DNA of 64,000 nucleotides. It comes from Thioclava nitratireducens. GTDB taxonomy: Bacteria > Pseudomonadota > Alphaproteobacteria > Rhodobacterales > Rhodobacteraceae. Each line of letters opens with the position of its first letter. The first letter of the stretch is position 1. The notes under the pieces are model-generated. The model ran no database searches and had not been told where the DNA came from. It saw only the letters and a list, made by a program, of their open reading frames with translations. Location: positions 1,276,501 through 1,340,500 of the forward strand of contig NZ_CP019437.1 of the NCBI RefSeq assembly GCF_001940525.2, written 5' to 3'. This document shows, piece by piece, positions 3,937 to 37,060 of the stretch. A program made the translations under genes and the position numbers.

Positions 3937-4638
3937 TCAATCGCGCGTGATCTCGCGCAGGAACGCGGCGAGATCGGCGGTGTGGTAGTGGATGTGATCC
4001 TCTGGCGCAGGGGCGGGGGCGACATGCACGGTCTTCATGCCGAGTGCATGGGGATGGCGCAGGTTGCGGGCGTCGTCCTCGAACATAGCGCCGCGCGTGG
4101 GCTCGATCTCGGCCTGCGCGAATATCCGGTTGAAGGCTTCGCCGCGCGGCTTTGGATGAAACTCCGCGTGCTCGACACCATAGACCCCGTCGAAAAGCCC
4201 GGTCAGCCCACGCGCCTCGATGACCCGTGTGGCATAGGGGGCCGAGCCGTTCGTGTAGACGATCTTGCGGCCCGGGAGCGCGTCGATGCCTTCGCGCAGC
4301 GCATCATCCTTGACCAAATGATCGAGTGAGATCTCGTGGACTTCGTGCAGATAGGGCGCCGGGTCGACGTCGTGCTCGTGCATCAGCCCGGCCAGCGTGG
4401 TGCCGTAAAGCTGCCAGTAGTGGTTGCGCAGGTGATCGGCCCGCGCCCGATCGACGCCCAGCGAGCGCATCACGAAATCGGTCATCTTCACCTCGATCTG
4501 GTCGAAGAGTCGCGCCTCCGGCGGGTAGAGCGTGTTGTCGAGATCGAACACCCAGGCGTCGACATGCGCGAACTCGGCGGCGAGGTCGCGGTCGGCGGGG
4601 GCGGCGGAGGCGGGGGCAGGCGCGGTGCTGTCTGTCAT
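3937..4638 (-). CDS. HAD-superfamily pyrimidine 5'-nucleotidase
   Basis: A 233-residue soluble hydrolase of the haloacid dehalogenase superfamily. Motif I is VFDLDNTLYPP near residue 35 (nucleophile Asp and acid Asp), motif II is YTNGSAP, and motif III/IV is MFEDDARN. This arrangement with a helical cap after motif I matches the SDT1/PHM8-like pyrimidine 5'-nucleotidases, which dephosphorylate UMP/CMP or related phosphates. I chose the internal ATG because the frame upstream (to 4740) reads as low-quality sequence and runs into the divergent GntR gene. The start region has no strong ribosome binding site, so the start is the weakest part. Confidence 0.85.
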   Translation of the reverse strand: MTDSTAPAPASAAPADRDLAAEFAHVDAWVFDLDNTLYPPEARLFDQIEVKMTDFVMRSLGVDRARADHLRNHYWQLYGTTLAGLMHEHDVDPAPYLHEVHEISLDHLVKDDALREGIDALPGRKIVYTNGSAPYATRVIEARGLTGLFDGVYGVEHAEFHPKPRGEAFNRIFAQAEIEPTRGAMFEDDARNLRHPHALGMKTVHVAPAPAPEDHIHYHTADLAAFLREITRD

Positions 4639-4734
4639 GGGCTGCAAGCTAAGTTGCGGGGCGCGCGGGTGCAATCTGCTTGTCACCGGGTGCGCGCCGC
4701 GCCTAATCTCTGGCAGATCTCGAAAGCAGGATGC

Positions 4735-5388
4735 ATGCAAAAAGACGCCTACACTCTCATACTCGACGCCATCGACGAAGGCGTCTACCGCCCCGGGGAC
4801 CGCTTGGTCGAATCCGAATTGGCGGAGCGGTTCGGAGTGTCACGCACCCCGGTGCGCGAGGCGTTGCAGCGGCTCGAAACCCAACAGATGCTGGCCCGCG
4901 ACGGGCGTTCGCTCATCGTCGCCTCGCTCGATCACAACCAGTTGGCGGAGTTGTATGTCGTGCGCGCCGAACTGGAGGCGCTGGCCGCGCAGCTGGCTGC
5001 GAAACATGCGGCTCCCGAAGAGGTCCGGGTGCTGCAGAACATGATCGACGAAGATCGCGGCCAACTCGACGATCCGGAAGCGTTGAGCCGGGCCAACCGC
5101 CGGTTCCACCACCAAATTCACCTCGCCTCGCATAATCGTTACCTCGTCCAGCAGCTCGATCTTGTGCACCGCTCGATGGCGCTTCTCGCGACCACCTCTC
5201 TTGCGGTGAAGGGCCGGGGCGAGGCGGCGCTCGACGAGCATCAGGCGATTGTCGATGCGATCCGCGAGGGCAATGGCGACGCGGCGGCCTCGGCGCTGCG
5301 GGCCCACATCTCGCGCGCCTTCGAGACGCGCCTCACGCTCGACGCGGCGCATCACGGGACGGCGGGCCACTGGGCCGAGGCTCTCTGA
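4735..5388 (+). CDS. GntR/FadR-family transcriptional regulator (FCD domain)
   Basis: A 217-residue one-component regulator. Residues 1-65 form a winged helix with the GntR signature LAERFGVSRTPVREAL, and residues 75-210 form an all-helical FCD ligand-binding domain; RFHHQIH, DEHQAIVDAI and RAHISRAF supply the histidines and acidic residues that usually bind a metal and a small carboxylic acid. The ATG at 4735 is chosen because the domain begins almost at once after it; an ATG four bases earlier is in another frame. It is transcribed away from the HAD gene and ends against the convergent glycosyltransferase gene with no gap. The ligand and target genes are unknown. Confidence 0.88.
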   Translation: MQKDAYTLILDAIDEGVYRPGDRLVESELAERFGVSRTPVREALQRLETQQMLARDGRSLIVASLDHNQLAELYVVRAELEALAAQLAAKHAAPEEVRVLQNMIDEDRGQLDDPEALSRANRRFHHQIHLASHNRYLVQQLDLVHRSMALLATTSLAVKGRGEAALDEHQAIVDAIREGNGDAAASALRAHISRAFETRLTLDAAHHGTAGHWAEAL

Positions 5389-7449
5389 TTATCCGATAAG
5401 CGGTGAATGGGCCTCGCGTTGCGGGGGCGGGCGCGCCGCGGCCTCTGCGGGGGCGATCTCGTCGCCGGGTCGGGCCTCCGACGCTGTCGCGTCACTGTCG
5501 TCGAAAATGCCGTGGCTCGTCTTGTCCCAGTAGAAGGGGCGCGCGATCAGTTCGTAGAGCGCCTTCCAGCCCGCCAGCGCGCCCAGCGGATAATAGAGGT
5601 GGAGCGTCGGGATCCATTTTATCAGGTTGCGATGCTCCGCCCCCCGGCAGGCCCAGGCAGAGGTCGTGATCGCGATCAACTCGGACAGAATGAAAGTCCC
5701 CATAACTAACGCGAAGACCGGGCCGGGCAGGGCGCTCGCGATCGGATGCCACAGCCCGAACAGCGCGAGCCAAAAGCTCCACAAGACCGGCGCCAGAACA
5801 TATTGCGAGAGCGAACCGAGGATCAGGATCTGCACGCCGAGAAAGCGTTTCGTGCCCAGATCGCGCCAGAGCTGCACCGGATCGCGCATATGCACCGCCC
5901 ATGTCATCGCGTAGCCCTTGAGCCAGCGCGAGCGCTGTTTGACCCAAGGCAGGGCGCGGCAATTCGCCTCCTCGAAGGTGGCGGCAGCGATCAATTCGGT
6001 GCGGTAGCCGTGCCGCGCGAGACGCACGCCAAGATCGGCATCCTCGGTCACGTTATGCGCGTCCCAGCCGCCCAGCTCCTCCAGCGCGTCGCGGCGGAAG
6101 AAGAGGGTCGTTCCGCCCAAGGGCACGACGAAGCCGAGCCGCGCGAGCCCGGGCAGGAACATCCGGAACCACGTCGCATATTCCACGGTGAAGCAGCGCG
6201 CGAGCCAATTGGTGCGCGGGTTGTAATAGTCGAGAACCCCTTGCAGGCAGGCCGTCTCGGGCGGGGCCGCGAGGAAGCGCTGGGCGACGATCTGCAGTTG
6301 ATCCGGCTCGGGCGCGTCCTCGGCGTCCCAGACGCCGATCACCGAGCCGCGACAGAAGTTCAGCGCGTAGTTCAATGCGCGCGGCTTCGTCTTGATCGGC
6401 CCGTCGGGTACCGTGACCACCCGCATCCAGCGTGGCAGATCGGCGTTCGCAAGAGCCGCACGGGTCATCGTGTCGCTATGTTCGATGACGAGGATCACAT
6501 CGATCAATTCGCGCGGATAGCGCAGCTTGCCGAGCCGCGAGACGAGCCGCGCCGCGATGTCGGTCTCGCGAAACAGCGGGACCATCACCGAGATGATCGG
6601 CAGCCGCCCTTTCGGCGCGCCCCGGATGAGTGCGTCCGGGCGGGGCTTGCGCTGTTCGGTGATCTCGCTCGCAAAGGCTGCGAGCTTGAGCGCCATGGAA
6701 CCCACGAGCGTCAGCATCACCCACCCGAAGAAAAGCCCGAGAAGCAGGTTGGGCGCGAGCAACATTCCGAGCCCGGTCACCGCTACGAGCCCCGCCGCGA
6801 TCCGGCTGGCGCGCCGTTCGTTATGGTTGCGGCAGCTCTCGACCGGGTCGACCTTGATCTCGGCGTGTCGGATCAGCGCGGTCTCGCGGCATGTGAGCAG
6901 GCTGTCATGCACGCAGCGTTCCGCGGCCAGTACGAGCCTGTAGGGCGCATGGCACGTGGGTAGCGAAGCCTGTAGAGCCTCGAAATCCTCGGGCCGTGCG
7001 GTCGCGATGAGGGTGACGCCGCCGACGCGCCGCCAGGGAACCATCGCGTGCTTCAGGCAAAGCTCCGGTCCGATGGCATCGATGAGGCGAGGATCGGGCG
7101 GCTCCTCTTGCAGGTCGACGACCGAGGCATGTCGTTGTTCCGCCAAGGCGGCCATCAGATCGGTCTCGTGTACCCAGCCATTCGCGAGAAGGATATCACC
7201 AAGCCTTACATCTTCGCGCTGCCGAAGCGCCGACGCCGTAAGCAGATCGGCCGGATCGACCGCGTCCCGATCCAGCAGGATTTCTCCCAGAGGTGGGCGC
7301 GCGGCGCGGCAGGCGTGTCGTTTTGGCTTCGCATCAAAGCTGCGCCGTCTGAGCGGAGAAATGGAATTCGCGATTGGATTGGTCAGCAGCAGCGGCGCCG
7401 GTTTGGCGTCAGCCGCTGGTGTTTTCAAAAGCTTTTGCCGCGCGCCCAT
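5389..7449 (-). CDS. GT2 processive-type glycosyltransferase with N-terminal MshEN-like domain
   Basis: A 686-residue membrane enzyme. Residues 53-105 carry two tandem 24-25-residue repeats of the kind found in MshEN / GspE N-terminal c-di-GMP-binding domains: the second repeat (R82 to Q105, starting RLGDILLANGW) fits the published pattern at every key position, while the first (P53 to Q77) lacks the leading Arg and the Gly. Two helices lie near 218-258. The catalytic GT2 domain (285-520) has DAED at 375-378, TED at 468-470 and QRSRW at 505-509, the signature of cellulose/chitin-synthase-like enzymes. Three further hydrophobic segments follow. It probably makes or exports a surface glycan; the sugar is unknown. 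GAGG precedes the ATG. Confidence 0.88.
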   Translation of the reverse strand: MGARQKLLKTPAADAKPAPLLLTNPIANSISPLRRRSFDAKPKRHACRAARPPLGEILLDRDAVDPADLLTASALRQREDVRLGDILLANGWVHETDLMAALAEQRHASVVDLQEEPPDPRLIDAIGPELCLKHAMVPWRRVGGVTLIATARPEDFEALQASLPTCHAPYRLVLAAERCVHDSLLTCRETALIRHAEIKVDPVESCRNHNERRASRIAAGLVAVTGLGMLLAPNLLLGLFFGWVMLTLVGSMALKLAAFASEITEQRKPRPDALIRGAPKGRLPIISVMVPLFRETDIAARLVSRLGKLRYPRELIDVILVIEHSDTMTRAALANADLPRWMRVVTVPDGPIKTKPRALNYALNFCRGSVIGVWDAEDAPEPDQLQIVAQRFLAAPPETACLQGVLDYYNPRTNWLARCFTVEYATWFRMFLPGLARLGFVVPLGGTTLFFRRDALEELGGWDAHNVTEDADLGVRLARHGYRTELIAAATFEEANCRALPWVKQRSRWLKGYAMTWAVHMRDPVQLWRDLGTKRFLGVQILILGSLSQYVLAPVLWSFWLALFGLWHPIASALPGPVFALVMGTFILSELIAITTSAWACRGAEHRNLIKWIPTLHLYYPLGALAGWKALYELIARPFYWDKTSHGIFDDSDATASEARPGDEIAPAEAAARPPPQREAHSPLIG

Positions 7450-7543: not shown

Positions 7544-8707
7544 TTACGACTTGCGCGCGCGCATCGCTCTCGCGAAACGCTCGAACAGGTAGTAGCTGTC
7601 CTGCGGGCCAGGGCTCGCCTCGGGGTGATACTGCACCGAGAAGACCGGGCGATCGGCCATCGCAATACCGCAGTTCGAGCCGTCGAACAGCGAGACATGG
7701 GTCTCGGTCACACCCTTGGGCAGGGTCTGGCTGTCGACCGCGAAACCGTGGTTCATCGAGGTGATCTCGACCTTGCCGGTGGTCAGGTCCTTCACCGGGT
7801 GGTTCGCCCCATGGTGTCCGTGGTTCATCTTGACGGTCTTCGCGCCAAGCGCGAGCGCCAGCATCTGGTGGCCGAGGCAGATACCGAAGACCGGCAGCTC
7901 GGTTTCCAGAACGCCCTTGATCATCGGCACGGCATATTCCCCGGTCGCTGCCGGATCGCCCGGACCGTTCGATAGGAAGACCCCATCGGGTTCAAGCGCG
8001 AGCACGTCCTCGGCCGTCGCGGTGGCTGGCAGCACGGTCACGTCGCAGCCAGCCGAGGCGAGGCAGCGCAGGATGTTGCGCTTCGCGCCGTAGTCGATGG
8101 CGACAACTTTCAGGTCGTTGCCTTCGGCTTTCTTGTAACCCTCGGGCCAGGCCCACCGCATCTCGTCCCAGCGGTAGCTTTGCGCACAGGTCACGTCTTT
8201 CGCGAGATCGAGCCCTTCGAGCCCGGACCATTCGCGGGCCTTGCGTACCAGCGCCTCGATGTCGAAGACCCCGTCGGGGTTGTAGGCGATCGCGACATGC
8301 GGCGCGCCTTGCTGGCGGATTTCGCGGGTGAGGCGGCGAGTGTCGATGCCGCCGATGCCGATGCGACCGCGCTTCTCCAGCCACTCGACCAGAGTCTCGG
8401 CGGCGCGCCAGTTCGACGGCTCGGTCGGGTCCCATTTCACCACCATTCCGGCGGCAACGGGATCGTTGGTTTCGTCATCTTCCGGGTTCACGCCGGTATT
8501 GCCGATATGGGGGAAGGTGAAGGTCACGACCTGGCCCGCATAGGAGGGGTCGGTCATGATTTCCTGATAGCCGGTCATCGACGTGTTGAAGACGAGTTCG
8601 GCCACCGTCTCGCCCGGGCGGCCGAAGCCCTTCCCGTAGAACAGCGAGCCATCAGCGAGTGCGATCAATGCAGTGGGCTTTTCCGATGCGGACTGGCTTG
8701 CAGGCAT
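7544..8707 (-). CDS. carA: carbamoyl-phosphate synthase small (glutaminase) subunit
   Basis: A 387-residue subunit that hydrolyses glutamine and channels ammonia to CarB for carbamoyl phosphate, the precursor of arginine and pyrimidines. The N-terminal domain has LADGSLFYGKGFG and the conserved MTGYQEIMTDPSYAGQ; the class I glutaminase domain has the nucleophile in FGICLGHQ and the His-Glu pair in YHPEASPGP. The open frame extends to 8767, but I start at 8707 because GGGGAG lies eight bases upstream and a good promoter occupies 8739-8767. carB is not in the window; argF and argD, which use this product line, lie at about 30 kb. Confidence 0.95.
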   Translation of the reverse strand: MPASQSASEKPTALIALADGSLFYGKGFGRPGETVAELVFNTSMTGYQEIMTDPSYAGQVVTFTFPHIGNTGVNPEDDETNDPVAAGMVVKWDPTEPSNWRAAETLVEWLEKRGRIGIGGIDTRRLTREIRQQGAPHVAIAYNPDGVFDIEALVRKAREWSGLEGLDLAKDVTCAQSYRWDEMRWAWPEGYKKAEGNDLKVVAIDYGAKRNILRCLASAGCDVTVLPATATAEDVLALEPDGVFLSNGPGDPAATGEYAVPMIKGVLETELPVFGICLGHQMLALALGAKTVKMNHGHHGANHPVKDLTTGKVEITSMNHGFAVDSQTLPKGVTETHVSLFDGSNCGIAMADRPVFSVQYHPEASPGPQDSYYLFERFARAMRARKS

Positions 8708-8738
8708 GGCGCGACTCCCCGATGTCAAAATTCGCCGG

Positions 8739-8767
8739 AACCTAGACGCGCTGGGCGCGGGGGTCAA
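8739..8767 (-). promoter_or_regulatory. probable sigma-70 promoter of carA
   Basis: On the minus strand TTGACC, a 17-base spacer and TAGGTT. It would start transcription about 25 bases before the carA ATG at 8707, which also argues against the longer reading of the gene. Confidence 0.5.
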
Positions 8768-35359: not shown

Positions 35360-36979
35360 TCAACGCCGGCCGATTTGCGGCGTCGCGGCGAGCTTGGTGC
35401 GGTGCCGTTCTGCCCAATCGAGAAATTCGCTGATCGGCATCGGGGCGGCGATCGCCGGGCCTTGCACCGCTGAGCAGCCCAGCTGGCACAGCATCGCGTG
35501 CTCGGCGATACCCGGCACCCCTTCGGCGAGAGTTTTCAGCCCCAGTCCTTCGGCCATCGATACGATCGCGGCGGTCAGGCGCTGGTGTTCGGTGTTGTGG
35601 TCGATCTGTGCGGTGAGCGAGCGATGGATGCGCAGCCGCTGCGGTCCGAGCCGGTGGATCGTTTCTGCCGAGACGGGGCCGGTGCCGAACCCCGCCAGTT
35701 CGATCAGGCAGCCTAGGCGTTTGATTTCGTGCAGGGTGCGACAGCAAACCGGATCGTCGAGCCGCGCCACCATCGCCTGCGGGACGATCAGCCGCAGCCG
35801 GTTCGGGGCGATCTCGAACCGGTCGAATTCCCAGGCCAGCCGCTCGGCCAGTCTCGGGTCGCCCATCTGGCCGTGCAGGAATGGCAGCGAGGCCGGGCCG
35901 AAGTCGCTGCCGTCGCGCGAGATGTCGCGCAGCGCACCGAAGGCCGCGTAGAGCATCACCTCGGAGAAGCGCGCGCCGAGCCCTGCAGCTTCGATCGCGG
36001 GAAGAATCTCGCTTTCGGTCAGGATCCCGCGCTGCGCGTGAAGCCAGCGCGGGATTGCCTGAAATCCCACGATGTCCCCGGTATCGGTGGATATCTGCGG
36101 CAGGAAGAACGCCTTTATATGCCCGGCCTCCAGTGCCTCCCCCACGCTGGCGGATAGCGGGTGCGGGCCCGGCTCTTTCATGACGATCTTGTTGGAACGG
36201 GAGGAGCGGATCGCGCCGGGCCCGCTGCGCATCGCGCGCTCGGCGGCGGTTTCGGCGCGCGACAGTGCCGCCTCCGCCTCCGCATGGGCGTGCGCTTCGG
36301 CCTTGGCCAGCGTGGCGGCGTCCTCGCGATGGGCAGGGGACGCATCACTCCGGCCCACGAGGTGAAAGCCGATATGCATGGTGATCTGTTCGGTCTGTGC
36401 CGCGATCGAGTAAGGCTCGCTTACCGCTTCCTGCAGGCGCCCGCAAAGCTGGATCATGCCCTCGAGCCCGAGGCGTGGCGTCGGGCGCAGCAGGACCGCG
36501 AAACGGGCACCCTCCCATCGGGTGACTACGTCGCCGCTGCGCAGCTGCCCCTGAAGCCGCTCGCCGATCCGGCGCAGCAGCAGGTCGAAGTCCCTGGCCG
36601 GCAGGCGCCGGAGCGCCTGCTCCGGCGCGTCGAGGCCGAGGATCAGGCAGCCGGTCGGGCGATTGCGCGCCCGCGCGTCCTGCAGGGATGCGGCCATTTC
36701 GGAGATCGCGGCATTTGGCGGCGGCAGGCCGGTAGCGGGGTCGCAGCCTTCCTCGTCAGTCTCAAGCGGGACGGGCAGGGGACGGGTCATCCATCCCACT
36801 AGAAGCGCGGTAAGGCCGATCAACACCATCGCCTCGGGCCCCACCCAAAGCAGGGCGAGCCCACAGGCCGGTACGAAGGCGATCATCTCGCGGCGGAGCA
36901 GAACCGGCCCCGGCTTGCCGTGATATTTTGCGCGCAGCTCTGATTTGCGGGCGGCGCGCTTGCCACCGTCCTTCCCCAT
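35360..36979 (-). CDS. degenerate GGDEF-EAL protein
   Basis: A 539-residue membrane-anchored protein. Two hydrophobic segments (about 32-47 and 49-65) are followed by a GGDEF-like domain (75-210), a helical Ala/Glu-rich linker, and an EAL-like domain (275-530). The catalytic motifs are gone: GGDEF is EGARF at 156-160, EAL is QAI at 307-309, the metal-binding Asn and Glu positions are lost, and DDFGTG is AGFGTG at 429-434. It therefore should neither make nor cleave c-di-GMP, but could bind a nucleotide or a partner. I start at ATG 36979; the frame to 37045 lacks support. It lies between ttcA and yidC. Confidence 0.88.
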   Translation of the reverse strand: MGKDGGKRAARKSELRAKYHGKPGPVLLRREMIAFVPACGLALLWVGPEAMVLIGLTALLVGWMTRPLPVPLETDEEGCDPATGLPPPNAAISEMAASLQDARARNRPTGCLILGLDAPEQALRRLPARDFDLLLRRIGERLQGQLRSGDVVTRWEGARFAVLLRPTPRLGLEGMIQLCGRLQEAVSEPYSIAAQTEQITMHIGFHLVGRSDASPAHREDAATLAKAEAHAHAEAEAALSRAETAAERAMRSGPGAIRSSRSNKIVMKEPGPHPLSASVGEALEAGHIKAFFLPQISTDTGDIVGFQAIPRWLHAQRGILTESEILPAIEAAGLGARFSEVMLYAAFGALRDISRDGSDFGPASLPFLHGQMGDPRLAERLAWEFDRFEIAPNRLRLIVPQAMVARLDDPVCCRTLHEIKRLGCLIELAGFGTGPVSAETIHRLGPQRLRIHRSLTAQIDHNTEHQRLTAAIVSMAEGLGLKTLAEGVPGIAEHAMLCQLGCSAVQGPAIAAPMPISEFLDWAERHRTKLAATPQIGRR

Positions 36980-37060
36980 GACACCTACCCCCGTGGCACA
37001 TGCAGGCCCCTCAGGAGCCCCCTTCGCCGGCGAGGTTAGGCGCAATTGGTATTCAGCCGG

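Follow-up and report, generated by a model that had tools for sequence, protein, structure and literature searches.

A predicted c-di-GMP-sensing MshEN domain on a cellulose-synthase-like glycosyltransferase of Thioclava nitratireducens, and its probable repeated loss among relatives

Can the synthesis of a glycan be placed under the control of cyclic diguanosine monophosphate (c-di-GMP) by a sensor other than the PilZ domain? The question is raised by a gene of Thioclava nitratireducens (Rhodobacterales, Paracoccaceae in the NCBI taxonomy), found in a stretch of 64,000 nucleotides (the window; contig NZ_CP019437.1, positions 1,276,501 to 1,340,500), in which an MshEN domain precedes a family 2 glycosyltransferase (GT2). 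An initial annotation had proposed an alternative c-di-GMP input to glycan synthesis for the reading frame at 5389-7449. These coordinates stand, the strand being minus, and sequence and a structure model both bear out the MshEN fold and the GT2; the idea itself is not new, a similar fusion being known from E. coli, and MshEN-glycosyltransferase fusions are already stated in PMC5013675. (This paper, PMC8669469, PMC8250860, PMC4643136 and PMC5567048 are cited throughout from excerpts.) It is likely, as judged from the sequence, that c-di-GMP controls the synthase, and this control is probably weaker in the Thioclava lineage than among its relatives.

Architecture of the MshEN-GT2 protein

The gene and its parts lie in the window as follows.

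5389..7449, minus: MshEN-GT2 glycan synthase gene, 686 amino acids, with Pfam and NCBIfam matches and a near-identical protein, P0001
6886..7299, minus: MshEN domain, residues 51-188
7222..7293, minus: c-di-GMP half-motif 1, variant (P53, D62, A63, S73, R76), residues 53-76, by NF053729 and alignment
7135..7206, minus: c-di-GMP half-motif 2, key positions intact, residues 82-105, by NF053729 and alignment
6649..6819, minus: putative membrane hairpin of two predicted helices (211-231 and 233-267), by DSSP of the structure model alone
5914..6600, minus: GT2 catalytic domain, about residues 284-512
6316..6327, minus: DAED, residues 375-378, by sequence and alignment
6040..6048, minus: TED, residues 468-470, by sequence and alignment
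5923..5937, minus: QRSRW, residues 505-509, by sequence and alignment
5542..5853, minus: C-terminal predicted helices (533-636) of the structure model, channel-type by likeness to BcsA

The protein matched five Pfam families, each above its own cut-off: Glyco_tranf_2_3, Glyco_trans_2_3, Glycos_transf_2, Glyco_transf_21 and MshEN, the last at residues 110-161 (36.8 bits, cut-off 23.1). The full 53-position model of the NCBIfam c-di-GMP motif NF053729 aligned to residues 53-105 with 41.7 bits (E 7.1e-11), above its cut-off of 38. By these scores the tandem repeats, which had been noticed to begin 29 residues apart (53 and 82), go beyond chance, and the profile search of the N-terminus to which the initial annotation had looked came out in its favour. 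So did the structure model, in which both an MshEN fold (a four-helix bundle with C-terminal subdomain) and a cellulose-synthase-like GT2 were found. When compared by sequence to solved structures, residues 48-180 matched PilF, PilB and MshE, and residues 282-534 matched BcsA. DxD-type, TED and QxxRW motifs with flanking helices, which mark a processive GT2, are present in the sequence, the alignment and the model. In an alignment of the query with its best 120 of 6794 homologues (121 sequences, all close relatives), the DAED, TED and QRSRW first reported are identical throughout, save one A-to-V within DAED. On sequence and model, the joining of an MshEN fold to a cellulose-synthase-like GT2 is a true fusion. 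The closest database protein among the matches listed is P0001, a glycosyl transferase of Thioclava sp. JM3 that is 99% identical.

Half-site residues and predicted c-di-GMP binding

Site residues are numbered as in MshE plus 44, with residue roles taken from PMC5013675. The protein follows the published layout of two 24-residue motifs with a 5-residue spacer, at 53-76 and 82-105; the earlier bounds of the second repeat hold, while those of the first (53-77) do not, and its Gln position, Gln77 by those bounds, is in this register Arg76. Motif 2 has all key residues of the R-L-G..L..L..Q pattern, as first described, with W92 alone falling outside the published L/V/I set. In motif 1, the deviating Pro53 and Asp62 had been correctly noticed, but the list was short, as Ser73 (for Leu), Ala63 (for L/V/I) and Arg76 (for Gln) also deviate. 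One half-site is thereby complete (L54, R82, L83, G84, L98, L102 and Q105), and in the other, G55 and L69 are retained while Arg, Gln and Leu are replaced by P53, R76 and S73. Each Leu triad may be assigned to its guanine, in our own reading, by the symmetry of the description in PMC5013675.

Much of this variation belongs to the whole group. Among the 121 sequences P53 was found in 113, R76 in 120 and Ala63 in 114, with G55 kept in 120; since P53 and R76 are near-universal, the close relatives share, by sequence, their own variant of repeat 1. In repeat 2, W92 and L98 are kept in all 121, L102 in 120 and Q105 in 119. To the group's variant the Thioclava protein adds the rare Ser73 (S in 2/121, L in 76/121) and Asp62 (D in 3/121, G in 81/121), as well as E56 and T71, where relatives usually have Q and K.

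In MshEN, the loss of any single conserved hydrophobic residue lowered affinity more than 10-fold, changes of Arg9 or Gln32 lowered it no more than fivefold, and a relaxed search motif tolerates Pro as its first residue and Arg as its 24th; the Asp62 and Ser73 of the Thioclava protein fall outside it (PMC5013675). In PilF, one motif of GSPII-C starts with Pro335 and the domain still binds c-di-GMP, its affinity being described as comparable to the 500 nM of MshEN (PMC11731258). The two PilF sites were measured at 324 nM and 12 nM, and in GSPII-A a residue other than Gln at the last motif position contributed to abolished binding (PMC12002112, in which the order of domain naming conflicts with PMC11731258). 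Our prediction from these residues is that the Thioclava protein binds c-di-GMP, more weakly than its Leu73 relatives, because Ser73 replaces a leucine that should stack on guanine.

The nonsynonymous substitution rate (dN), as compared with four close relatives, was 0.15-0.19 in motif 1, 0.05-0.07 at residues 77-105, 0.11-0.12 at 106-188, 0.15-0.20 at 189-283, 0.04-0.05 in the glycosyltransferase (GT) domain and 0.02-0.05 at 513-645, and its ratio to the synonymous rate was below 0.3 throughout. Constraint is weaker in motif 1 than in the enzyme part but not absent, and other parts are loose too. Against P0001 there were no changes in the motifs and 10 elsewhere.

With moderate confidence we favour a mechanism in which c-di-GMP from the cell's GGDEF enzymes would bind the MshEN domain and switch polymer synthesis on. 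A cytosolic MshEN domain would be tethered to the GT2 domain by the membrane hairpin, and c-di-GMP would be held mainly by the intact half-site, the second being the variant one (P53, G55, L69, S73, R76). Binding might then shift the hairpin and open the active site, as was proposed for the activation of NfrB, and the polymer would exit through the enzyme's own helices.

It is possible, though rather unlikely, that the MshEN fold was kept while binding was lost at cell concentrations, leaving the domain a structural or partner role and the GT2 under some other control, such as expression with carA. The departure of S73, D62, T71 and E56 from the family consensus and the faster dN of motif 1 than of the GT domain would agree with such a loss; however, the motif score exceeds the curated cut-off, the key positions of motif 2 are intact and both motifs are identical to those of P0001. 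We consider it improbable that c-di-GMP binds but inhibits, relocates or assembles the synthase rather than activating it. A non-binding triple Leu mutant of V. cholerae MshE was active (PMC5013675), so a binding-free state is not always off, but changes in either the GT or the MshEN part of NfrB lowered phage N4 plating, which was read as activation (PMC8669469).

The sensor motif and the c-di-GMP signal across the family

By family we mean the family group drawn around the Thioclava genome (295 genomes, 294 genera). A GT match was found in 271 of the 295 genomes, five of them weakly (G016, G032, G479, G481 and G630), and NF053729 was matched in 172 at E 0.001 and above cut-off in 123, not each of which was confirmed as lying inside the GT gene. 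Fewer than half of the sampled genera keep a clearly recognisable sensor motif; most keep the enzyme. These shares come from the 295-genome survey because a second set, of 102 distinct homologues, was not a random draw (20 loci were chosen for a late-starting or odd match, and 20 others of lower identity were picked by hand). In that set the motif was intact in 51, partial in 10, degenerate in 29 and deleted in 12, by our own scoring with soft class borders. In a six-frame motif search L038, scored as degenerate, reached 43 bits, and the 12 deleted rows gave nothing in 11 and 4 bits in L164, which has an in-frame stop within the MshEN C-subdomain, not a deletion; L153 is fragmented. The catalytic D..D, TED and Q..RW were complete in 101 of the 102, the exception (L020, with TEN) having an intact sensor motif.

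On a quick tree of the GT domain (103 rows, SH-aLRT support only) the intact state needs 12 changes, at least 9 of them forced by the starred branches. The motif was intact in 13 of 13 outgroup rows and, in the clade around Thioclava, in 21 of 22 with one partial. Therefore, on these sequences, the sensor is most likely ancestral and has been lost on many occasions, the enzyme being retained. This repeated loss beside kept catalytic residues would suit a Thioclava domain that no longer binds, whereas the state of the surrounding clade speaks against it. We put forward only tentatively a wider picture, in which an ancestral c-di-GMP-gated synthase was uncoupled many separate times by erosion or deletion of its sensor, leaving a series from gated to free-running enzymes with Thioclava mid-way and one of its half-sites failing. 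Loss of the signal was rejected as the cause of sensor loss: genomes with sensor-less copies retain GGDEF matches (three in G042, three in G054, one in G071, two in G081 and five in G440). As separate observations, the fragmented GT relative L153, with its MshEN N-half unmatched, comes from a genome without a GGDEF match (G107), and at L131 4379-7693 (G130) a distant GT relative with a degenerate sensor motif is immediately preceded by a PAS-GGDEF gene.

In the Thioclava genome four GGDEF matches were found, three of which carry GG[DE]EF. The fourth is a GGDEF-EAL protein within the window (35360-37045, minus) with EGARF in place of GGDEF, in whose EAL domain no DDFGTG-like motif was found; it is possibly a c-di-GMP receptor or an inactive protein. 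PilZ had no match in the genome at E 0.001. In the same genome a CelA-like GT2 (L178 4818-6806, minus; 373 bits to TIGR03030, below cut-off, and no PilZ match) adjoins an HlyD-family gene (L178 6819-7958, minus), a layout like that of bgsA/bgsB glucan synthesis. The excerpts of PMC5567048 mention neither HlyD nor BgsB. Because the CelA-like GT2 beside the HlyD gene and the degenerate GGDEF-EAL gene are possible outputs, the claim that the MshEN-GT2 protein is the genome's sole c-di-GMP receptor was dropped.

All 15 GGDEF-less genomes among the 295 lack both the GT and the NF053729 match, and 9 of the 280 with GGDEF lack the GT (Fisher p 2e-19, assuming independent genomes, which they are not). 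The GT-less status of G576, G580, G583 and G634 was inferred from numbering gaps between the GT and GGDEF listings, and three of the GT-less genomes counted as GGDEF-positive (G576, G580 and G516, the last below cut-off) have one weak match each.

Two results limit the case for c-di-GMP control. A control family, PF02563 (Poly_export), was missing in 13 of the 15 GGDEF-less genomes, which have thus also shed polysaccharide-export genes, and its association with the GT was nearly as strong (Fisher p 7e-16, genomes again treated as independent). Further, repeat positions that vary freely among homologues, named by the initial annotation as a sign against its reading, are found in much of the wider family, though not in the surrounding clade. 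The distribution of GGDEF on a 48-genome RpoB tree requires 7 changes, and an independent-pairs sign test of GGDEF against GT was non-significant (median p 0.125); of the 60 genomes tried, G475, G505, G525, G479, G023, G045, G517 and G591 gave no RpoB match, G037 and G506 were partial, and G523 and G462 had a frame too short or none. In view of the control and the tree test, co-absence was rejected as proof of c-di-GMP dependence and no specificity is claimed for it; it fits the model without proving dependence. The GGDEF-less set includes genomes of 4.7-5.6 Mb (G029, G462 and G559) and so does not consist of small genomes alone.

If binding is true, many of the family's sampled genera have one conserved gene that could put a surface glycan under c-di-GMP control, and in Thioclava such control would occur in a genome without a PilZ match. 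Repeated sensor loss beside unchanged catalytic motifs would provide natural orthologues in which the costs and gains of c-di-GMP gating can be weighed.

Genomic neighbourhood and comparison with known systems

Two neighbours accompany the GT gene in every family locus compared.

7544..8767, minus (the GT strand): carA, 94 bases upstream of the GT gene, by Pfam; upstream neighbour in 16/16 family loci
4336..5388, plus: convergent GntR/FCD regulator gene, by Pfam; 16/16 family loci; true start probably inside the open reading frame

The 16 family loci are that of Thioclava and 15 hand-chosen for contig room. All have the order yqeY, carA, GT (on the carA strand), convergent gntR and HAD hydrolase. 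In L125 the distance from carA to the GT is about 1 kb greater, and in 15 of the loci an FAD-binding gene comes next after the hydrolase. The carA-gntR order was missing at five loci taken from outside the family. There is no export partner among the named neighbours of the Thioclava gene, and a promoter and terminator scan gave no promoter-like site and nothing informative. An open frame of 405 amino acids antisense to the GT gene (5746-6963, plus), with similar frames at seven other loci, can most likely be put down to high G+C coding.

Among the closest known systems is NfrB of E. coli, an exopolysaccharide synthase and c-di-GMP-controlled GT2 with a dissociation constant of 1.0 uM, in which, as here, a GT2 with DxD, TED and QxxRW is linked via membrane helices to MshEN (PMC8669469). 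The NfrB model PRK11234 and the GT-family model PRK15489 match residues 50-151 and 46-179, respectively, both below cut-off. Unlike NfrB, where the GT2 comes first and MshEN last, the Thioclava protein has MshEN (51-188) before GT2 (284-512); its neighbours are YqeY, CarA, GntR/FCD, HAD and FAD-binding genes rather than the nfrA/ybcH partners, and its motif 1 is variant, whereas the NfrB MshEN was called fully conserved (PMC8669469).

The MshEN-GT2 order is in print for the Sfz2/XagB-like proteins of stalk-forming iron oxidisers, as an N-terminal EpsE-like type II secretion domain (IPR007831) followed by a GT2 (PMC8250860), and one relative among the matches listed, P0072, carries the source name XagB. 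It seems very improbable that the N-terminus is likewise an export-helping part, as was considered for Sfz2: the same domain was so discussed in Zetaproteobacteria, with translocation doubted (PMC8250860), but the MshEN portion alone matches and no ATPase domain is among the Pfam matches. Sfz2/XagB-like genes sit in bcsB-xag clusters (PMC4643136), in contrast to the carA-gntR context of all 16 family loci. Outside the family, the 33% relative L133 resembles the iron oxidisers' bcsB-xag/sfz clusters (PMC4643136, PMC8250860) in its surroundings: a BcsB-like gene precedes the synthase, and the second gene after it is a GH113 gene. In L133 and similar relatives the first position of motif 1 is canonical, unlike that of the Thioclava protein.

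BcsA senses c-di-GMP via PilZ, for which the MshEN-GT2 protein had no Pfam match up to E 10, and the CelA model scored 43 bits on it against a cut-off of 699.1. The GSPII domains of MshE, PilB and PilF share its MshEN fold and tandem 24-residue motifs, fused there to an ATPase and here to a glycan synthase. The mixed-linkage beta-glucan synthase BgsA is likewise a GT2 with a non-PilZ c-di-GMP input, but its sensor is C-terminal and of another type (PMC5567048). Judged by titles and the starts of abstracts, no publication on this Rhodobacterales gene was recognised among those listed from the MshEN, XagB and Rhodobacter/Thioclava c-di-GMP literature. As far as that literature was searched, the new elements are the wide retention of the gene, its distinct variant of repeat 1, its constant placement between carA and gntR and the repeated sensor loss, while the MshEN-GT2 fusion, on sequence and model, is a variant of an already known type of c-di-GMP-controlled GT2.
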